A stretch of DNA of 64,000 nucleotides from an uncultured Chlorobiaceae bacterium (GTDB lineage Bacteria; Bacteroidota; Chlorobiia; Chlorobiales; Chlorobiaceae), in NCBI GenBank assembly GCA_903882665.1, contig CAIRXW010000008.1:124001-188000 (forward strand), written 5' to 3'. The position numbers were made by a program, and so were the translations under genes. Within the stretch, counting starts at the first letter, position 1. Every line of letters begins with the position of its first letter. Below are positions 17,884 to 28,096 of this stretch, piece by piece. The notes beneath the pieces are model-generated. The model saw only the letters and a list, made by a program, of their open reading frames with translations, searched no databases and was not told the DNA's origin.

Positions 17884-18744
17884 ATGAGCCGTGCGGCTGT
17901 TTTTATTGATGGAGCAAACCTCTTTTTTACGCAGCGCCATCTGGGTTGGCAGATCGACTTTTCCCGTCTTATGTCATTTTTCATCTCCGCTTATGGCTCA
18001 GTGCAGGCAAATTACTACGTCCCGGCATCCGAACCGGTTTCGGAGGAAAGTGCGGCATTCACCAGAGTGTTGACAGCCCATGGCTACCGGATCACCTCAA
18101 AACCGGTCAAAAAGATTGTCAACAAGGAGACCGGAGTGGTGGTCATGAAAGGTAATCTGGATGTTGAACTTGTTGTTGATGCCCTGAGTGCAGCCGATCA
18201 GTACGACACTTTTATCCTCTTCAGTGGCGACAGTGATTTTCTCCCCTTACTGAGGGCGTTAAAAGAGAAGGGCAAAGAAATTATTGTCTATTCCACCCAG
18301 GGACTGAGTGCCAGGGAGTTACTTGCCGAACAGGGAATCACCTATGGTGACCTTGCTCTCCTCAAAGAGCGTATTGAACAGGTCCGGCCGGGAGATCCCC
18401 TGCGTGTTGACGGGCTGGTTGCAGCCAATGAGCCTGACTTTTCGCTTCCTCTGCCCGATGTCGGGACCATCTTTACCGGCAGCGTTCTGAAGGTACAGCC
18501 TTACGGTATTTTTCTCAGCAGTCCCTATCATGTCAAATGCCTTCTTCCCCTGAGTTTTCTCGGTATCAGCCGTCACATCGCCGACCTGACGGCGATTGTG
18601 CGTATGACCGATGTTTTTGACGTGGTGGTCTTTCACGTCAATTCCGCTCGTGAAGTTCCCGAAATTACCGTCAAACTGGCCGATAAAAAGATGACAGAGG
18701 AGTTGACGTCGCGCATAGAGGGACAGTCGGGAAGCTATCGCTGA
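17884..18744 (+). CDS. NYN-domain (LabA/DUF88) nuclease with C-terminal S1-like domain
   Basis: 286 residues from ATG 17884, with AGGAG about 10 bases upstream. The NYN (PIN-like) domain spans about residues 1-160. It starts SRAAVFIDGANLFF with the first catalytic Asp, and has NLDVELVVDAL and FILFSGDSDFLPLLRALKEKG, giving the Asp set of a metal-dependent RNase. A region at about residues 195-275 (VGTIFTGSVLKVQPYGIFLS and following) reads like an S1 RNA-binding domain. NYN plus S1 suggests an RNA-cleaving protein with its own RNA-binding module. The C-terminal end overlaps cbiO convergently by about 10 bases. Target RNA is unknown. Confidence 0.8.
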   Translation: MSRAAVFIDGANLFFTQRHLGWQIDFSRLMSFFISAYGSVQANYYVPASEPVSEESAAFTRVLTAHGYRITSKPVKKIVNKETGVVVMKGNLDVELVVDALSAADQYDTFILFSGDSDFLPLLRALKEKGKEIIVYSTQGLSARELLAEQGITYGDLALLKERIEQVRPGDPLRVDGLVAANEPDFSLPLPDVGTIFTGSVLKVQPYGIFLSSPYHVKCLLPLSFLGISRHIADLTAIVRMTDVFDVVVFHVNSAREVPEITVKLADKKMTEELTSRIEGQSGSYR

Positions 18745-19466
18745 AGGCGGAGCGGCAGCTCAAGATGGTTGGCTTCAAGCAGTGCCCTGTTGGAGAGAAT
18801 GTCCCTGGCAGCTCCGTCAGCTACAATGCGGCCCTGATTCATGATGCAGACTCTTTGGCAGGTATCCCAGATAAAATCAAGATCGTGTGACACCGTTACG
18901 GTTGTTTTTTTGAGCCCGTTGACCAGGTTGATGAGCTTTCTGCGGTTTTTCGGGTCAAGATCAGCCGTTGGTTCATCCATGATAATCACCTCGGGATTCA
19001 TAACCAGCACGGTTGCAAAAGAGGCAAACCGCTTCTGACCCTGCGACAGGTGTGCCGGCGCTTTATCGCGCAACTCCCAGAGACCCAGCTCCCGGAGCGC
19101 ATCTTCGACCAGTCGAGCAATATCAGCCCTCTTCATGCCGAGATTCTCCGGCCCGAAAGCAACATCATCATAAAGCCGTGCTGTAAAGAGCTGGTCATCC
19201 GGGTTTTGAAAGAGCAGGCCGACCACCTTGTGGATGCGGTCAAGATTTTTTTTGCACACCTTTATGTCGCCAATCGAAATGGAGCCCTCCTGGGGCAGAT
19301 AGTAGCCATTCAGGTGGTTGACGAACGTCGATTTTCCTGCACCGTTTGCCCCCACAATACCGACTGAGCTTCTTTCGGCTACGGCAAGACTTATCTGCTC
19401 AATGGCCCTTGTTCCGTCAGAATAGGAAAAGCTGAGCCCTTCAATAGCGATCATGCAGGTTACCAT
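18735..19466 (-). CDS. cbiO: ECF transporter ATPase CbiO/NikO
   Basis: About 243 residues. Walker A GANGAGKST, Q-loop FQNPDDQLF (a hallmark of ECF ATPases), signature LSQGQKR, Walker B VIIMDEPTADLDP and H-loop TVSHDLD. ATG 19466 overlaps the cbiQ stop as TAATG; ATG 19454 (MIAIEGLSFSY) is the more family-like start. It powers the CbiM-CbiQ-CbiO cobalt/nickel uptake complex. Because cbiM carries a NikR-like operator, nickel is the favoured substrate. Confidence 0.88.
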   Translation of the reverse strand: MVTCMIAIEGLSFSYSDGTRAIEQISLAVAERSSVGIVGANGAGKSTFVNHLNGYYLPQEGSISIGDIKVCKKNLDRIHKVVGLLFQNPDDQLFTARLYDDVAFGPENLGMKRADIARLVEDALRELGLWELRDKAPAHLSQGQKRFASFATVLVMNPEVIIMDEPTADLDPKNRRKLINLVNGLKKTTVTVSHDLDFIWDTCQRVCIMNQGRIVADGAARDILSNRALLEANHLELPLRLQR

Positions 19467-20239
19467 TAAAAGATCAGGCGAAGAGCAAGGAAGAGAAGAG
19501 CCCAGAGCCCGATAGTCATCCACTCACCGAAACGCATCTTTTCGCCCGTGCGGCCTCTCATCCGCCCATCAAATCCCCTCGCGATCATGCTTCGATAAAG
19601 CCGTTCAGCACGGCTTGTCGTCCTCAACAGCAATGAGCCGATGAGTGGTGCGGTACGGAAAAGCCCTTTTCCCTTCCCGCCGAACGAACGGATATCTCTC
19701 GCTTTTAGCATTGACTTAGCCTCGTCGTGCAAAACGGAGCGGTAGCGGTCGAGCAGTATCAACTGCGTTATCAGCACATCGGGCACATGAAGCGCTTCAA
19801 GGGCGCGGCATATCCGGTAAAAGGGAATGCAGAGGGTCACCGAAAGCATGCCTGCTACAGAGATCATCGTTTTTGTCATGATCACCATTGCGGACATCAT
19901 TCCGCCTGTGATGGTGAACCCCGAGAGAATCCACATCGGAGTGCGGTCGAGAATAAGGTTTCCTGCGGCCATAAAAAACACAAAAGGGGAGAGCCGCAGC
20001 AACCGTTTCGCTATTACTCCTGCGGGAGCTTGAGCCGCGCCAATCAGAAAGAGCGGAAAAGCAGCAAAAACAACCACTGCTGCAAGATTGAATTTCGGGA
20101 CAGAGAGCACAGAGAAGAGAAAGAGAGCGGTAACCACAAGGGCTGAAAGGTCACCTCCGAGGAATCGAAAGAGCGGTGGAGCTGAATTCATATCGGTATG
20201 GTCAAAACCGATGGTATGGAGTTCATTTTTCATCATCAA
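19466..20239 (-). CDS. cbiQ: ECF transporter transmembrane (T) component CbiQ/NikQ
   Basis: 257 residues with about five to six membrane segments. The cytoplasmic coupling helices of T components are visible as LLDRYRSVLHDEAKSMLKAR and SRAERLYRSMIARGFDG; the latter carries the conserved A-R-G motif that docks to the ATPase. It couples CbiO hydrolysis to CbiM. The start overlaps the cbiM stop by four bases, and its end overlaps the cbiO start, so all three are translationally coupled. Confidence 0.9.
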   Translation of the reverse strand: MMMKNELHTIGFDHTDMNSAPPLFRFLGGDLSALVVTALFLFSVLSVPKFNLAAVVVFAAFPLFLIGAAQAPAGVIAKRLLRLSPFVFFMAAGNLILDRTPMWILSGFTITGGMMSAMVIMTKTMISVAGMLSVTLCIPFYRICRALEALHVPDVLITQLILLDRYRSVLHDEAKSMLKARDIRSFGGKGKGLFRTAPLIGSLLLRTTSRAERLYRSMIARGFDGRMRGRTGEKMRFGEWMTIGLWALLFLALRLIF

Positions 20240-21246
20240 CGTTTCGACTGCTCTCCTTTTCTGCCAAGTATCATTCCTGCCGCTCCTGCGCAGACAAGTA
20301 CGGAAAGCGTGCCGACAATACCCGAAACAGAGCTGCCGACATTGACCGGGGAGCGGGAAACTGCTGCGGCTTCAGGGCCGGGTCTGAAGCCGTAATCAGG
20401 CAGAAACGCGATCTTATGCTGAAGAGCGGCAAGCAGGTCATGCACGGGTTCGCTTGCCGGGCGGAACGTTTCGGAACCTGATACTTTCGCCAAAGACCAT
20501 TCAAGCCCGTCCGGATAAGGGGAGGCGAACAGGGAGACGACACCTCCAGTCATGAGGGCGGCGATGGCAAAGAGTGCTGTCGTAAAGCGGGGATGAGCGG
20601 TTGCTGTGGCAGGAACAAGCAGCGCCGGTTCTGTTCGAGCCACAAAAACAAGCACTCCCCAGGTAACCAGCCCCTCAACAATGCCGATGGCAAGATGGAC
20701 CGGAAGCATGAAGAGCACAAATGTGCTGAACGGTAATTCTGTTATACCCGAAAGGAGTGTTTCCAGAACAACGGCTAATGACCCCATTAATAGACCCGCT
20801 GTTGCTGCCGTCATGCTGCCGGCAGCAAGCTTTCCAGGAGACGCAGAATTACCGGCAATAACCCAATAAATAAAAGGAAAAGCAATAAATGCAGGAAAAA
20901 ATGCAAGGTTAAAAATATTGCATCCAAGCGCAAGCAGCCCCCCGTCGGCAAAAAAAAGGCATTGAATGATGAGTACCGAAGCAAGTGTTATAAATGCCCG
21001 GTATGGGCCGAGCAGTACGGTCAGCAGCAGCCCTCCGCCAAGGTGCCCGCTTGAACCGGTGCCAGGGATACTGAAGTTTATCATCTGCGCAGCAAAAACA
21101 AAGGCCCCGAGTACACCCATCAATGGCGTTTTTACCACATCATGCTCTTCAGTGATCTTTTTTGCAGAATACCCGATAAGTGCACCGCTTACTACCCATA
21201 ACACTCCTCCGACAAGCGGCGATATTATTGCATCCCCCATGTGCAT
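20236..21246 (-). CDS. cbiM: CbiM/NikM substrate-binding component fused to a PDGLE (CbiN-like) domain
   Basis: 336 residues. Residues 1-210 are the CbiM/NikM integral S component. The N-terminus MHMGDAII is diagnostic: in NikM structures the N-terminal Met-His and a His near residue 67 chelate Ni, and here His2 and His68 (GSSGHLGGG) fit. This also fixes the start codon. Residues 230-336 are a CbiN-like extension with two more membrane segments and the SPYPDGLEWSLAK motif of the PDGLE domain, so CbiM and CbiN are fused as in NikMN. It is the first gene of cbiMQO, about 41 bases downstream of a 33-bp inverted repeat that I interpret as a NikR operator. Confidence 0.9.
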   Translation of the reverse strand: MHMGDAIISPLVGGVLWVVSGALIGYSAKKITEEHDVVKTPLMGVLGAFVFAAQMINFSIPGTGSSGHLGGGLLLTVLLGPYRAFITLASVLIIQCLFFADGGLLALGCNIFNLAFFPAFIAFPFIYWVIAGNSASPGKLAAGSMTAATAGLLMGSLAVVLETLLSGITELPFSTFVLFMLPVHLAIGIVEGLVTWGVLVFVARTEPALLVPATATAHPRFTTALFAIAALMTGGVVSLFASPYPDGLEWSLAKVSGSETFRPASEPVHDLLAALQHKIAFLPDYGFRPGPEAAAVSRSPVNVGSSVSGIVGTLSVLVCAGAAGMILGRKGEQSKR

Positions 21247-21286: not shown

Positions 21287-21319
21287 TTCGTGTCACTAAA
21301 TTAATTATTGTAACACGAA
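21287..21319. promoter_or_regulatory. Candidate NikR operator upstream of cbiM
   Basis: The arms TTCGTGTCAC (21287-21296) and GTAACACGAA (21310-21319) are inverted repeats with nine of ten pairs, separated by a 13-base A/T-only centre. NikR, a ribbon-helix-helix tetramer, binds long, widely spaced palindromes; the site has the same kind of geometry as the E. coli GTATGA-N16-TCATAC site with a different half-site. A nikR gene lies in this window. The site is 41 bases from the cbiM start and in the shared region with the divergent metal-efflux genes. Confidence 0.65.
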
Positions 21320-21366: not shown

Positions 21367-21422
21367 CCTGCACCCGGAAACGCCGAGCCCCGGCTCGGCT
21401 TCCTTCTTTCAGCCAAAGCAGG
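21367..21422 (-). other. Potential structured RNA leader of cbiM containing a dispersed palindrome
   Basis: On the leftward transcript CCTGC and GCAGG can close a structure around an inner hairpin (GGAA-GCCGAG with CTCGGC-TTCC). No B12 box or other riboswitch signature that I know is present. The inner palindrome at 21381-21399 has a 16-of-19 relative at 40873-40891, so it may be a repeat element rather than a cis-regulatory RNA. The whole element lies upstream of the NikR-like site. Confidence 0.3.
21381..21399. repeat. Palindromic intergenic repeat, copy 1
   Basis: The near-perfect palindrome CGCCGAGCCCCGGCTCGGC matches the element at 40873-40891 at 16 of 19 positions. All three differences are purine-purine or pyrimidine-pyrimidine changes. 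Both copies are intergenic and preceded by a GCAC...CCGG stretch. Confidence 0.45.
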
Positions 21423-21510: not shown

Positions 21511-21876
21511 ATGCACAAATACAGCGCGATAACATTTTTTTCTCTATTTTTTCTTCTGATCCTGCTGACAGCCTCGATTAATGGCGAGTTCAGTGGTGTT
21601 AAGGCGACGCAAACAAGTATTTCATCGGCGCAAAACGGGGAGGCATTTGCTGCTGTATCGGCAATGCATACCAGCAAAAAAACTGCTGATGAACGCCATA
21701 AACATTCCGCGGAATGTTATACGTGTTGTAATTGCTTGTGTCATGTGATTCTTTCGGTCCAATCGATCAAGCTTGATTATAATCCTGTAATCACCAGTTT
21801 CTGCTCTTTTAAGCCCATCACAAATCTACCCGAAATAATTCTTTCCAGATTTATTCCTCCTCGAACTTTAGCCTGA
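21511..21876 (+). CDS. Small exported Cys/His-rich protein heading the metal-efflux operon
   Basis: 121 residues from ATG 21511. Residues 4-26 form a hydrophobic signal or anchor (AITFFSLFFLLILLTASI). The mature region carries a dense metal-ligand cluster: a His-Lys-His run followed by CYTCCNCLCH, i.e. five Cys and several His within about 20 residues. Exported small proteins of this kind often head czc/cus-type operons. I do not recognise a named family. It is 109 bases upstream of the outer-membrane channel gene and divergent from cbiM. A metal-buffering or sensing role is inference. Confidence 0.6.
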   Translation: MHKYSAITFFSLFFLLILLTASINGEFSGVKATQTSISSAQNGEAFAAVSAMHTSKKTADERHKHSAECYTCCNCLCHVILSVQSIKLDYNPVITSFCSFKPITNLPEIILSRFIPPRTLA

Positions 21877-21985
21877 CAGCGTAAGTCTGCCTGGTTTCAT
21901 CATAGTTTTGTTCTGTTATTCCGTTGTTTTCCACTTCGGGCTATTGGGATGTCACGATAAAAACGTCATAAAAGAGTCTATTCTT

Positions 21986-23284
21986 ATGGGGAAAAATATA
22001 TGTGCACAGGGAGTGTTACTTCTTGTGACGGGATTGGTGTGTATGTTATGGTCAGTTCCGGTATGGGCTGCAAAGCCAGCGCTCACACTATCCGGGGTGA
22101 TTGAGTATTCGCTGCAACATAATGGTGACCTCCGGTCATTTCGTGAAGAAAAAGGAATCTTTGATGCCGGAAAGGTCAAAGCGGGGCTTTTACCAAATCC
22201 AACGCTTGAATTTGAAGCCGTTACGGGCGCTTTGACCGGGAATAGTGCCGAAAGCACGCTCTCGGTCGGGATTTCACAGGAATTATTACTGGCAGGCAAA
22301 CGGAGTAAGCGACTGGCCGTTGCCGAACGTGAACTGGATCTTTACAGATACAAGCTTGCGGACAGAGAGCGGCTTGTTTGTGAAGAGGTTTCAACAGTAT
22401 TCTATGATGTCATGCTGGCTGAACAACGACTTGCTTTGGCCGACCGATCCATCGCGCTTAACCGGGATCTTCTGGAAGTATCAAAAGCACGTTTGGCGGC
22501 AGGCGATATTCCGGAACTGGAGATGAATCTGGTCAAAGTTGAACTTGCACGGAGTGAAGCCTTGAAAATTGATGTCGCAAAAACGCTCAATCAGAGTCAG
22601 CAGAAGCTGGCGACAATTACAGGCCTGCCGGTTGGGGAGCGAAACGCAATATCAGGCACATTTTATTCCACAACAACGAGCTCAAAAGCACTGGTAGACC
22701 TAAAACAACTGGCACTGGCACAGCGTCCGGACATAAAGGTACTTGAGGCTGAAAGAGGAAGAAGTCAAACAGGTGTCTGCCTTGCCCGGGCCGAGAGTGT
22801 TCCCAACCTCACCGTCGGCCTGGCCCTCTGGCGCGACACGAGATCAATGAACATCATCGGCCTGGAAGGCACCGATAAAACATATACCATCGGGATGAAG
22901 CTCTCCATGCCCATTCCCGTTTTTGATCACAATCAAGACGGTGTTCAGGAAGCTTGGGCCCTGCAGAGCAGCGCAGAAAGTCGGTTGTTAACTGCAATCA
23001 GAAATGCTGAACGTGAAGTTGAAACGGCTTATGCCAGTTGTCTGAGCAGTGAGAAAATTCTTTCACTGTACAAGACGGACATTATTCCCCAACTCCAGGA
23101 AAACCTCAGCCTGACCGAGGAAGCCTGGCGTCTTGGTGAAGTAGGCATACTGGCAGTAATTCAGGAACAAAAAAAATTCTTCGAGGTCAGTGAAAATTAT
23201 CTGATGGCGCTCTATAACCGTCAGATCGCTCTTGTACAACTTGATTCAGCAGTGGCAACAGAATTAAACGGAGGGAAACAGTGA
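21986..23284 (+). CDS. Outer-membrane efflux channel, CzcC/CusC (TolC) family
   Basis: 432 residues. Signal peptide with core GVLLLVTGLVCMLWSVPVWA, then two tandem outer-membrane-efflux-protein repeats with long amphipathic helices (for example SKARLAAGDIPELEMNLVKV and the matching EEAWRLGEVGILAVIQEQK). LPNPTLEFE and MPIPVFDHNQG-like segments are typical of CzcC. It provides the channel for the tripartite pump. Its stop overlaps the GTG start of the adaptor. The start is ATG 21986; the frame is open upstream but that part is not signal-like. Confidence 0.9.
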   Translation: MGKNICAQGVLLLVTGLVCMLWSVPVWAAKPALTLSGVIEYSLQHNGDLRSFREEKGIFDAGKVKAGLLPNPTLEFEAVTGALTGNSAESTLSVGISQELLLAGKRSKRLAVAERELDLYRYKLADRERLVCEEVSTVFYDVMLAEQRLALADRSIALNRDLLEVSKARLAAGDIPELEMNLVKVELARSEALKIDVAKTLNQSQQKLATITGLPVGERNAISGTFYSTTTSSKALVDLKQLALAQRPDIKVLEAERGRSQTGVCLARAESVPNLTVGLALWRDTRSMNIIGLEGTDKTYTIGMKLSMPIPVFDHNQDGVQEAWALQSSAESRLLTAIRNAEREVETAYASCLSSEKILSLYKTDIIPQLQENLSLTEEAWRLGEVGILAVIQEQKKFFEVSENYLMALYNRQIALVQLDSAVATELNGGKQ

Positions 23285-24477
23285 AAAAGAGCGGGATTAT
23301 CATTGGCGTTATTCTGGCCATAATCATGGGCGGAGTCTATCTCTATCAATCTATGAGCCTGAAAAATGGGGGTGCTGAGAACCCGGAAAAGCATATAGAC
23401 CAGCAAAAAAGAGAGCAGAGTGATGGCATCAAAATGAACGCCCGGTTACAGAACGAAAACGGAGTTCTTGTTACTGTCGCCAAAAGACAAAGTTTCACTG
23501 AAGTTATCACGGCAACAGGCAAAGTGGAGGCCAATGCCGACCGGATTGCTCATGTCTCTCCGCGCATCTCCGGCCAGATTTTTTCTGTTCCGGCATCTTT
23601 GGGCGACCGGGTAAATGCCGGTCAGACTCTCGTAATCCTGAAAAGTCTTGAAATGGCTGAAGCCACCAACCGCTACCGCCTTTCAAAAACAAAACTGGTT
23701 CTTGCGGATGCAAATATGACGCGAATCAGGACTCTGGTAGAAAAGAAGATCGTTGCCCGAAAAGAACTTCTTCAAGCTGAAACCGACTATAAAATCGCTC
23801 AAACTGAGTTGCAGAATGATAAAGAGAGGCTCTCTCTGTATGGAGCCGGAAGCTCAAACTTGAATGTCAGCCGCCACAACAAAACCACTTTGATGGTACC
23901 TGCTCCAATAAGCGGAACCATTACCGAAAAGCATGCCATTGTCGGTGAACTGTCGGACCCGTCTAAAAGCCTTTTCACCGTGGTTGATCTCTCCACGATT
24001 TGGGTAGTGGTAGACATCTACGAAAAAGATCTGGCAAAAGTGCGCACGGGGCAGAGGGCAACGGTCACGGTAGATGCCTGGCCTGAATTAAAACTTACAG
24101 GGCGGGTTGCCTACCTTGCCGATATGCTTGACGCGACCACCCGCACCCTCAAGGTCCGTGTAGAGGTTGCCAACCCCGAGCGAAAGCTGAAGCCCGAGAT
24201 GTTTGCCCGGGTTGAACTGACACCTCCAGCCAGTGCCGTAATGACCTTGGCGATCCCTGAAGATGCTCTCCAGGAAATAGATGGCAAAAAAGTAATCTTT
24301 GTTACCGATAAAAGCCAGGAAGAGTTCAGACCGCAAACAGTAGAAGCGGGACGTTCTTCCGGTGGTATGGTTGAGATTGTTTCCGGCCTGAAAGAAGGCG
24401 AACGGTATGCTGTTAAAGGCTCATTTATCCTGAAGTCCGAGCTTAAAAAGAGTGAACTTGAGGGGGGCGCCGAATAA
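23281..24477 (+). CDS. Periplasmic adaptor of heavy-metal RND pump, CzcB/CusB family
   Basis: 398 residues, GTG start overlapping the channel gene's stop. N-terminal anchor GIIIGVILAIIMGGVYLYQ, lipoyl halves ISGQIFSVPASLGDRVNAGQ and APISGTITEKHAIVGELSD around a helical hairpin, then beta-barrel (WVVVDIYEKDLAKVRTGQ) and membrane-proximal domains. It bridges the RND pump and the outer-membrane channel. It lacks the Met-rich N-terminal copper site of E. coli CusB and lacks a His-rich N-terminus, so sequence does not decide between Cu, Ni/Co and Zn. It overlaps the pump gene start as TAATG. Confidence 0.88.
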   Translation: MKKSGIIIGVILAIIMGGVYLYQSMSLKNGGAENPEKHIDQQKREQSDGIKMNARLQNENGVLVTVAKRQSFTEVITATGKVEANADRIAHVSPRISGQIFSVPASLGDRVNAGQTLVILKSLEMAEATNRYRLSKTKLVLADANMTRIRTLVEKKIVARKELLQAETDYKIAQTELQNDKERLSLYGAGSSNLNVSRHNKTTLMVPAPISGTITEKHAIVGELSDPSKSLFTVVDLSTIWVVVDIYEKDLAKVRTGQRATVTVDAWPELKLTGRVAYLADMLDATTRTLKVRVEVANPERKLKPEMFARVELTPPASAVMTLAIPEDALQEIDGKKVIFVTDKSQEEFRPQTVEAGRSSGGMVEIVSGLKEGERYAVKGSFILKSELKKSELEGGAE

Positions 24478-27400
24478 TGCTTCAAAAAATCATAGCCTAT
24501 ACGTTAAAGAAAAAAGGTGCGGTCATCGTGCTTTCGCTTTTGATTACCGTGTTTGGTGTCTACTCCTATCTGAAACTGCCTCTTGATGCTTTTCCTGATG
24601 TCACCAACGTGCAGGTTGAGGTGGTCAGCTATGCGGAAAGACTTTCGGCACTGGAAATAGAGCGAAATGTAACCTATCCAATAGAGATGGCTATGCGAGG
24701 CCTGCCTGATATTGAACAGATGCGTTCAGTCACCAAGTTCGGCCTCTCGATAGTCACCATTGTTTTCAGGGATAATGTTGACATCTACTTTGCCCGGCAA
24801 CTGGTGTTCGAACGGCTGGCGGAGGCTCGGGAGAAGGTTCCAAAGGGCGTTGCGGTCGCTATGGGGCCGATTGGCACCGCCATGGGAGAGATTTACCAGT
24901 ACACGCTTGAAGGAAAGATGCCGAGAGAGCCGCAGCAGAAGATTGCCTGGCTGACTAAACTTCGAACCATTCAGGAGTGGGTTGTTGCTCCGCAGTTGAA
25001 AAGCGTTGCCGGAGTAAACGAGATCAACTCCTTTGGCGGTTATTTCAAGCAGTATCAGGTAATCGTGTCACCGGAACTACTTTTGAAATATGCCGTAACC
25101 ATTGCGGATGTCCATTCCTCCATCGGCAGCAACAATGAAAACGTCGGTGGCAACATACTCGAACGGGGTACTGATCAATATATCATCCGCGGCGTCGGGT
25201 TGATAAAAAACATAAGTGATATCGAAAACATTGTCCTGAAATCCGAAGGTGGAACACCGATCTGTGTCAGGGATGTCGCACAGGTCAAGGTCGGTGAGGC
25301 TGTCCGTATGGGTGCCGCCATGAAAAACGGCCAGGATGAGTGTGTTGGCGGTATCATCATGATGCTGCGTGGTGAAAATAGCCGGGACGTTGTTCGTCGG
25401 GTTGAGGAAAAAGTCAAAGAACTGAATGAAAACAATGTGCTGCCCGAAGGTGTCAGACTTGTTCCCTATTATGACAGAAGCGACCTGGTCAATTCGAGTG
25501 TCGGCACCGTAACCAAAGCACTGATAGAGGGTTCCATACTGGTTCTTATCGTGCTCTACCTGATGCTGAACAGTGTCCGTGGCAGTATTGTGGTGCTTCT
25601 TGCCTTGCCGCTCTCACTCCTTGCTACCTTTATCGTCATGAAAATTACAGGTATCAGCGCAAACCTGATGTCTCTCGGTGGTCTGGCCATTTCCATCGGC
25701 ATGATTATTGACACGACCATTATTCAGGTAGAAAACGTCCAGCGTCACCTGAGTGAAAAAGGGGGAATGCATCCCGATCTGCATACCGTCCTGAAAGCCG
25801 TCATGGAGGTCAGAAAGCCGAGTATATTTGGCGAGCTGATTATTGCACTTACCTTTATCCCGATTCTTTCCCTTGAAGGAATCGAAGGAAAAATGTTTGG
25901 CCCTCTGGCTATCACCGTCATCATTGCACTTTTGTCCTCCCTGTTTCTCTCCGTGTTTGTAATCCCCGTACTCTGCATTTTGTTTCTGAAACCACAGCAT
26001 GAAAAAGAGAGCTTCATCATGAAGCATGCAAACAGGCTCTATCTGCCGATGCTCGACTATGCCATGAAGATGAAGCAGGTGGTTTTGGGTATTGCTGGTC
26101 TATTGCTGCTTGTTTCGTTTTTTTTGGCCACCCGTCTGGGAACTGAATTTATACCAAGCATGGACGAAGGCTCCTTTGATATGGACGTCTCCATGCTTCC
26201 TGGCATTGCTCTCTCAAAAGCGATAGAGGTGAATCAGCGGGTCGCGATGAAGCTGAAAGAGTTTGACGAACTTGAGACCGTCGTATCACGAACCGGACAG
26301 ACCGGCGTTGCCCTCGATACCCGAGGGTCGGACAAGACCGGTTATGTCGGGATATTCAAACCGAAAAGCGATTGGAAGCGGGATATTTCCAAAGATGAGT
26401 TGACCAACAAAATGCGCCAGTCCCTTGAGTCGGTTGCCGGGATTACCTTTGGATTCAGCCAGCCGATTCAGTGCCGCATTGACGAACTTGTCGCAGGAAC
26501 CCGGGCACAACTGATTGTAAAGTTGTTTGGCGACGATATAAATCTTCTTAGTGAAAAATCAGCTCAAATTGCAAGAGTTCTCTCATCCGTGCGAGGGGGA
26601 ACCGATCTGAGCGTTGAAAAAAATTCCGGCCAGCCCTATCTGACCGTCAACATAGACCGCTCAAAAATTGCCCGCTATGGGCTGAATATCAGTGATGTAC
26701 AGAAGGTTATCGAAATCGGTGTTGCCGGTAAGGCGGCATCGCAGTTGTACGAAGAAAACCGCAGCTTTGATATAACAGTTCGTTTGCCTGAAGAAAAAAG
26801 AAACTCTCTGGAAGAACTCAAAGCGCTGATGATAACCACAAAAACAGGGGTAAATATTCCTCTTGAACAGCTTGCAGAAGTCAACATGATCGAAGGACCT
26901 GTTCAAATCAGCCGTCAGGACGGCGTAAGAAGAATCGGTATTGAGATGAATATTACCGGACGAGACATCGGCGGTTTTGTTGCCGAGGCCCGGCAGAAGA
27001 TCAAAGAACGTGTCAAATTGCCTGCCGGATATTATATCACTTGGGGAGGCCAGTTCGAAAACCAGCAGCGAGCGATGAACAAGCTGATGATCATCGGGCC
27101 TGTTGCCATCGGCTTGATACTGCTCCTGCTGTTTATCACCTTCCGCTCAATCCGCTTGGCGCTGCTGGTCATATCCAACCTGCCGTTCGCACTGATCGGC
27201 GGGGTGTTTGCGCTCTACATCTCCGGACAGTACCTCTCCGTTCCGGCATCGGTCGGCTTTGTTGTCCTGTTTGGTGTAGCCGTGCTGAACGGACTTGTGC
27301 TGGTATCACGTATCTCCCAACTGCGTGAAGAAGGACTTGAACTTCAGGAGGCAATCAGAAAAGGCTCCCTTGATCGCCTGCGCCCGGTACTCATGACCGC

Positions 27401-27572
27401 ATCGATTGCGATTTTCAGCCTGCTGCCGATGCTGCTCTCCAGCGAGACGGGTTCCGAAATACAGAAACCGCTTGCTACCGTTGTTGTTGGAGGTTTGATC
27501 ACCTCGACGCTCCTGACGCTGCTGATTATTCCATCAGTGTACAACTGGTTTGAAAAGAAAACTGCGGTGTAA
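24477..27572 (+). CDS. Heavy-metal efflux RND pump, CzcA/CusA family
   Basis: 1031 residues, the usual size. Twelve membrane segments in the RND pattern, with two large periplasmic loops. PLDAFPDVTNVQVEVVS near the N-terminus is the HME-RND signature. The proton-relay region in TM4 reads GGLAISIGMIIDTTIIQVEN, with a single Asp and the conserved VEN. It differs from the CzcA consensus (DGAVxxVEN), so the metal cannot be assigned safely. Position next to a NikR gene and a Ni-type importer makes Ni/Co export a reasonable guess. It converges on nikR, which ends 60 bases downstream. Confidence 0.9.
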   Translation: MLQKIIAYTLKKKGAVIVLSLLITVFGVYSYLKLPLDAFPDVTNVQVEVVSYAERLSALEIERNVTYPIEMAMRGLPDIEQMRSVTKFGLSIVTIVFRDNVDIYFARQLVFERLAEAREKVPKGVAVAMGPIGTAMGEIYQYTLEGKMPREPQQKIAWLTKLRTIQEWVVAPQLKSVAGVNEINSFGGYFKQYQVIVSPELLLKYAVTIADVHSSIGSNNENVGGNILERGTDQYIIRGVGLIKNISDIENIVLKSEGGTPICVRDVAQVKVGEAVRMGAAMKNGQDECVGGIIMMLRGENSRDVVRRVEEKVKELNENNVLPEGVRLVPYYDRSDLVNSSVGTVTKALIEGSILVLIVLYLMLNSVRGSIVVLLALPLSLLATFIVMKITGISANLMSLGGLAISIGMIIDTTIIQVENVQRHLSEKGGMHPDLHTVLKAVMEVRKPSIFGELIIALTFIPILSLEGIEGKMFGPLAITVIIALLSSLFLSVFVIPVLCILFLKPQHEKESFIMKHANRLYLPMLDYAMKMKQVVLGIAGLLLLVSFFLATRLGTEFIPSMDEGSFDMDVSMLPGIALSKAIEVNQRVAMKLKEFDELETVVSRTGQTGVALDTRGSDKTGYVGIFKPKSDWKRDISKDELTNKMRQSLESVAGITFGFSQPIQCRIDELVAGTRAQLIVKLFGDDINLLSEKSAQIARVLSSVRGGTDLSVEKNSGQPYLTVNIDRSKIARYGLNISDVQKVIEIGVAGKAASQLYEENRSFDITVRLPEEKRNSLEELKALMITTKTGVNIPLEQLAEVNMIEGPVQISRQDGVRRIGIEMNITGRDIGGFVAEARQKIKERVKLPAGYYITWGGQFENQQRAMNKLMIIGPVAIGLILLLLFITFRSIRLALLVISNLPFALIGGVFALYISGQYLSVPASVGFVVLFGVAVLNGLVLVSRISQLREEGLELQEAIRKGSLDRLRPVLMTASIAIFSLLPMLLSSETGSEIQKPLATVVVGGLITSTLLTLLIIPSVYNWFEKKTAV

Positions 27573-27631: not shown

Positions 27632-28039
27632 TCATTCAGCGGATGAAGAGATGCTCAGGCTCAGATGCTTGACTCCGACCTGCACCTTGAGGGTTGTGGC
27701 CAGTTTTTCAACGTCCGAGGCCCGGCCTTTTACCGCAATGATTTCAAGGCAGTGGTGATGATCGAGGTGCACATGCTGGGTTGAAATGATGGTCTCCTGA
27801 AAGTCATGCTGAATATCAAGGAGCACGCTGACCAGTTCTCGCTTGTGATGGTCATAAGTCATGACGATCGCTCCGGCAACAGTGCCGCCCTCTTGCCACT
27901 CTTTTCTGACAAGCTCTTCACGGATCAAATCCCGTATCGCTTCAGATCGGTTTTTGTACTGTTGTGTTCCGATATGACGGTCAAAAGCCTCGATCAAAGT
28001 TTTTTCAAGGGAGACGCCGAATCTGTAGAGATCGCTCAT
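27632..28039 (-). CDS. nikR: Nickel-responsive regulator NikR
   Basis: 135 residues from ATG 28039. N-terminal ribbon-helix-helix (YRFGVSLEKTLIEAFDRHI, NRSEAIRDLIREEL) and C-terminal ACT-like metal-binding domain. The square-planar Ni ligands of E. coli NikR (His76, His87, His89, Cys95) are all present two positions later as His78, His89, His91 and Cys97, in DIQHDF and QHVHLDHHHC. It is therefore expected to be a genuine Ni sensor, and its probable target is the palindrome upstream of cbiM. Only about 20 bases separate its start from a strong hairpin at 28060-28096. Confidence 0.93.
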   Translation of the reverse strand: MSDLYRFGVSLEKTLIEAFDRHIGTQQYKNRSEAIRDLIREELVRKEWQEGGTVAGAIVMTYDHHKRELVSVLLDIQHDFQETIISTQHVHLDHHHCLEIIAVKGRASDVEKLATTLKVQVGVKHLSLSISSSAE

Positions 28040-28059
28040 CTGGAGTTGTGGGTTGGTGA

Positions 28060-28096
28060 GCAAAACGGACCGGACTCCCGTCCGGTCCTCTTTTGC
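28060..28096 (-). terminator. Strong hairpin terminator after nfnL, just upstream of nikR
   Basis: GGACCGGAC and GTCCGGTCC form a perfect 9-bp stem with a 4-base loop. Flanking GCAAAA and TTTTGC extend it and supply a T-tract in both directions. On the leftward strand it ends the nfn transcript 16 bases after the nfnL stop. It leaves only 20 bases before the nikR ATG, so nikR is either read through or transcribed from a promoter overlapping the hairpin. Confidence 0.75.

Follow-up and report, generated by a model that had tools for sequence, protein, structure and literature searches.

The core of an inverted repeat at positions 21290-21316 of the window, the 64,000-nucleotide stretch of DNA analysed here, is very probably an operator site for NikR, the nickel-responsive repressor, and stands before a nikMN-nikQ-nikO importer operon. 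The sequence-only reading had already put forward a candidate NikR operator before a nickel-type importer, and this proposal is supported by a degenerate site that we found family-wide at nikR-linked nikMN genes. When nickel is sufficient, a Ni-NikR tetramer would bind both half-sites, whose first bases are 20 bp apart and which flank an A/T-rich centre, and the bound repressor would block the promoter of nikMN-nikQ-nikO just downstream, turning nickel import off. When nickel is scarce, the importer would be made and would supply [NiFe]-hydrogenase. Judging from other members of the NikR family, binding, nickel dependence and repression at 21290-21316 are most likely, and the distance of 43 bases from the core to the nikMN start codon fits repression. 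The blocked promoter is one that we infer, because a promoter scan recognised no sigma-70-like promoter beside the site. Control of nikMNQO by NikR is already known and of a textbook kind. What is new lies in the detail, namely the family-wide NikR recognition pattern and the apparent single-site regulon in this genome, together with the occurrence of PF13557 barrels ahead of both NikR-controlled nikMN and riboswitch-controlled CbiM. The features of the locus are as follows.

18735-19523, minus strand: nikO/cbiO, the ECF ATPase (Pfam PF00005; NCBIfam ECF ATPase models below cut-off)
19466-20239, minus strand: nikQ/cbiQ, the ECF T component (Pfam PF02361)
20236-21246, minus strand: nikMN (cbiM in annotation style), a CbiM domain fused to PDGLE, nickel-type S component (Pfam PF01891 and PF13190)
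21287-21319, no strand: full inverted repeat with 10-base arms, nine of ten positions paired, and a 13-base centre of A/T only
21290-21316, no strand: predicted 27-bp NikR operator core, GTGTCAC-N13-GTAACAC, based on the published consensus, its uniqueness in the genome and the family-wide degenerate motif
21382-21399, plus strand: terminator-like hairpin in the interval between the predicted operator and the efflux operon, its stem kept in genome G074 and its loop changed
21511-21876, plus strand: small ORF, secreted-like and rich in His/Cys, with which the divergent efflux operon begins, no Pfam match
21908-27572, plus strand: RND metal-efflux operon (TolC-like, CusB/CzcB-like and CusA/CzcA-like, by domain and family matches), between nikMN and nikR
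27632-28063, minus strand: nikR (PF08753 and NF003381, above cut-off)

Direct reading of the window gives the full repeat as TTCGTGTCAC-TAAATTAATTATT-GTAACACGAA, confirming the nine of ten pairs and the A/T-only centre originally described, and places it 40 bases from the nikMN start (ATG at 21246, minus strand). Its core matches the published NikR half-sites and spacer with a single base off consensus and lies upstream of a probable nickel uptake gene. The exact pattern GTGTYAC-N13/14-GTRACAC occurs once in the 2.8 Mb genome, at the window site. Scored with a first matrix built without the window's own genome (G000) and G074, the site reaches 26.2 bits, whereas no match in 20 shuffled windows exceeded 11.2. 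When G067 is left out of the matrix as well, the site scores 25.8 bits, and the runner-up in the window, which overlaps the site, scores 6.5. A sequence profile of 44 sites, again without G000 and G074, returned the window site as the sole significant match in its own genome (E=8e-4), followed by two partial matches with E of 0.05 and 0.7. This genome appears to have no second NikR operator, so NikR is probably a single-operon regulator, with some 6 kb between nikR and the target operon.

The nikR gene, 6.3-6.8 kb from the repeat, encodes a repressor with an RHH domain (PF01402) and a C-terminal PF08753 domain, in which the RFGVSL strand is kept. An alignment to solved NikR structures, including 2bj1, shows that the His/His/His/Cys nickel site is kept as well, which bears out the earlier statement that a full nikR with all four Ni ligands is present. 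Its start is likely the ATG at 28039 (MSDLYRFGVSL). The nearest named relatives are Chlorobium and Chlorobiaceae. The CbiM-PDGLE fusion noted from the sequence was likewise borne out by PF01891 and PF13190, and the importer consists of a CbiM-type S component with a NikN-type (PDGLE) domain plus the Q and O components; the true start of nikO/cbiO is probably inside the ORF listed above.

The exact motif is found upstream of cbiM only in G000 and G074 among the 98 genomes of the order, and also at an unrelated place in G011, while NikR occurs in 58 and CbiM in 80 of these genomes. The sequence-only reading had expected the same palindrome at nikR-linked genes of relatives. This expectation failed for the exact form, which one other genome shares, and held family-wide for the degenerate form RTRNYAY-N13-RTRNYAY; the absence of the exact palindrome was dropped as a refutation once the degenerate site had been found in relatives. 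Few sites in the family have GTGTTAC/GTAACAC in its exact symmetric form, and most read GTRGCAC-N13-GTGCTAY. Three other lines were set aside: conservation between G000 and G074 was rejected as stand-alone evidence, the whole intergenic region being nearly identical in both, a two-mismatch pattern search was swamped by chance and fell below its reversed control in most genomes, and generic inverted-repeat detection upstream of cbiM/nikR was uninformative.

Among 60 fetched nikR/cbiM loci, nearly all that bear NikR carry the degenerate site with its A/T-rich N13 centre. It occupies one or both of two places, either about 850-990 bases before nikMN and immediately ahead of a barrel gene (the usual gene order being nikR, outer-membrane barrel, nikMN, nikQ), or 57-77 bases before nikMN, and the window site belongs to this nikMN-proximal class. 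About 60 matches fall at these two fixed places, versus 3.5 in shuffled loci. None of the seven NikR-less nikMN loci L146-L152 carries the site; it is present in another NikR-less locus, L153 (G015), whose contig ends at the expected nikR place. When the regions upstream of nikMN from 15 genomes were aligned, the site was the clearest conserved block between the genes. Across the order, the profile at E<=0.01 found the site in 57 of 58 NikR-bearing genomes versus 5 of 40 without NikR, so that the site is kept where nikR is kept and missing where nikR is gone. This comparison is only partly independent, because NikR-bearing loci supplied the sites for the profile. The counts are not independent events either, because the genomes are related, and the Fisher tests on co-occurrence ignore this relatedness and illustrate strength only.

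The one NikR-bearing genome of the order in which the profile search found no site is G087, whose NikR is 44% identical. The five NikR-less genomes with a match comprise G015, three with weak matches (E 0.006-0.009) upstream of CbiM, and one with a partial match elsewhere. The weak matches lie at the operator position in NikR-less loci, upstream of a short CbiM (L040, L048 and L053, in G033, G072 and G075), and may be relic operators left after nikR loss. In four genomes whose loci were left out of profile building (G038, G061, G070 and G071), the site is 27-61 bases before CbiM and nikR is on another contig. In a 394-genome sample of the phylum, every profile match at E<=0.001 fell in this same family, f1.

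The efflux operon diverges from nikMN and ends tail to tail with nikR. It has a 264-base intergenic region in common with nikMN, and it had been proposed that one site there both represses uptake and affects efflux. The placement is a recurrent one, since the operon diverges from nikMN in G000, G074 and G067 and an 80% identical operon diverges from a NikR-sited barrel gene in G058. Nevertheless, we consider it improbable that NikR acts here through a shared two-way operator, repressing import and also affecting the divergent RND operon. About 195 bases separate the site from the first efflux ORF, and the terminator-like hairpin falls within this interval. RND pumps 78-96% identical to that of the window occur in about ten other genomes, and where the same operon is placed elsewhere (G031, G055, G033, G070 and G072) no NikR site was found upstream of it. 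In addition, the homology of the efflux module stops near the first ORF and does not take in the site. Control of efflux by the site is unlikely on this comparison, and the earlier claim goes unsupported. HME1/HME2 pumps for Co/Ni/Zn are marked by a DFG-DGA-VEN motif in TMH IV (PMC3637150), and the window pump has SIG-X3-DTT-X3-VEN, without DFG-DGA. The His/Cys-rich ORF at 21511-21876 has a signal-like N-terminus and is kept in G074, G067, G031 and G055, with no match in Pfam or NCBIfam.

Annotation-type names for the importer would be CbiM, CbiQ and CbiO, and there is only one CbiM in G000, where the cobalt route of the genome was not identified. These points would suit a cobalt transporter for B12 synthesis, with the palindrome belonging to another regulator, a reading that we regard as very improbable. 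In the five genomes with a second, shorter CbiM lacking PDGLE, that gene lies downstream of a cobalamin riboswitch, and this riboswitch-linked CbiM is a class separate from the NikR-linked nikMN. No cobalamin riboswitch was found at the NikR-linked nikMN loci tested and no Rfam match in the window, and the single cobalamin riboswitch of the window's genome precedes a BtuB-like receptor; the context of the window's importer is thus NikR, not a B12 riboswitch. Across the related genomes of the order, the site tracks NikR, and presence of a CbiM-family importer follows [NiFe]-hydrogenase (78/80 versus 4/18). His2 and His68, which had been taken for a NikM-type nickel pattern, are present in the window protein, but the riboswitch-linked, cobalt-type CbiM has Met-His behind an apparent signal peptide and also keeps the second His. 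We therefore rejected these residues as a nickel mark, as they occur in both importer classes and do not discriminate between them.

Because the site is conserved with nikR and the cobalt-type CbiM is under a riboswitch instead, the locus is best read as a NikR-repressed NikMNQO, in support of the original preference for NikMN-Q-O over cobalt uptake. From its regulation and neighbourhood, nickel is likely the substrate of the importer, and this settles what is probably carried by a transporter whose annotation would read cobalt importer. A wider treatment of Ni/Co transporters is reportedly given by Rodionov et al. in 2006. Zhang et al. assigned the transporter family to the nickel type in seven of nine Chlorobi and to the cobalt type in two (PMC2667541).

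As a bare palindrome the repeat is weak evidence for a site, because similar repeats are common in the window. A census of inverted repeats whose 10-base arms pair at 9 or more positions across a spacer of 3-30 counted 113, versus 48-72 in shuffles, and its subset with a spacer of 13/14 counted 13, versus 3-9 in shuffled windows; the repeat at 21287-21319 is the sole case with an A/T-only spacer of at least 8. It exceeds chance only weakly as a plain palindrome, but it does exceed chance when judged as a NikR site. A reading without an operator role, in which the palindrome arose by chance or forms a hairpin in a transcript, is hardly credible, for although the window has a fair number of such repeats, the motif match of this one is unique in the genome, its position is kept in relatives, the changes stay inside the motif (plus-strand half-sites GTGTCAC/GTAACAC in G000, GTGTTAC/GTAACAC in G074 and GTAGCAC/GTGACAC in G067), and a 13-base A/T-only loop with no T-run behind it would make a poor terminator.

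Genes for PF13557 outer-membrane barrels, at L138:1919-2746 (-), L056:599-1396 (+) and equivalent places in L058-L061 and L094-L101, occur in two settings in the same genomes: one barrel gene is flanked by the NikR site and nikMN, and a paralogue, about 46-54% identical, by the cobalamin riboswitch and CbiM. The PF13557 barrels are therefore highlighted, as a so far unstudied outer-membrane family, as candidate nickel/cobalt channels. The window's own genome has one barrel relative elsewhere, at L211:1489-2229 (-) in C3, which adjoins a gene for an RND-type outer-membrane lipoprotein and has no NikR site; the same search found no relative in G074 or G067. In G034, where nikR abuts nikMN directly, a barrel gene (L164:1779-2549) and the RND efflux operon end tail to tail, a layout suggesting that barrel and efflux genes have replaced one another more than once. 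We tentatively propose that every ECF metal importer of green sulfur bacteria may have its own PF13557 barrel under the same metal control, arranged as NikR site, barrel and NikMN-Q for nickel and as B12 riboswitch, barrel and CbiM for cobalt, that the barrel may be a metal-specific channel, and that in the window lineage it may have been replaced at the locus by the RND efflux operon; we rate this proposal somewhat below an even chance. If it is true, the window lineage would have nickel import and metal export opposite each other, with a single NikR site between the two.

Rodionov et al. (2004) derived the NikR consensus GTGTTAC-[N13/14]-GTAACAC from delta-proteobacterial nikMNQO operons, recorded GTGccAC-N13-GTAACAC at -41 before the Desulfuromonas nikMNQO, and reported a reversed NikR signal for D. 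psychrophila (PMC545781). Shared with this delta-proteobacterial signal are the GTGTTAC/GTAACAC half-site, the spacer of 13-14 bases, the position 41-183 bases before the operon and the linked NikMNQO-type importer. The Chlorobiaceae sites differ in that they come from another phylum, that their prevailing form is the one given above with a strongly A/T-rich centre, and that their half-sites are in the opposite order, resembling the reversed signal of D. psychrophila. Since the half-site GTRNYAC is nearly symmetric, both half-site orders fit one pattern. At the nikMNQO/TonB loci of Caldithrix abyssi, the importer was similarly named from an upstream NikR-like motif and a linked nikR (PMC5317091), although the partner there is a TonB-dependent receptor, whereas that in Chlorobiaceae is the PF13557 barrel, absent from the window-lineage locus. 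The NikR operator of E. coli nikABCDE has in common with the window site an RHH repressor with a C-terminal nickel site and an inverted repeat of equal overall length, but its half-sites are GTATGAT/ATCATAC and its importer is NikABCDE. CbiMNQO under a cobalamin riboswitch belongs to the same ECF transporter superfamily, and the window differs from it by having no riboswitch, a PDGLE fusion and linkage to NikR. We found no description of a Chlorobi NikR motif in the open-licence literature, and the recognition pattern of green sulfur bacteria is usable for naming nickel genes in other genomes.

Outside the phylum, nikMN relatives in a Raymondbacteria and an Accumulibacter genome (L230 and L238) lack a full operator match in the upstream sequence, and no neighbouring nikR was detected. 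In four Lentisphaerota loci, where NikR is 70-74% identical to that of the window, RTRNYAY-N13-RTRNYAY lies 53-64 bases before nikMN. In these loci (L231, L233, L234 and L235), the nikMN and NikR proteins are about 60-74% identical to Chlorobium proteins and the operator pattern is common to both groups, which suggests that the whole nikR-nikMN locus was transferred between the phyla of Lentisphaerota and Chlorobium.
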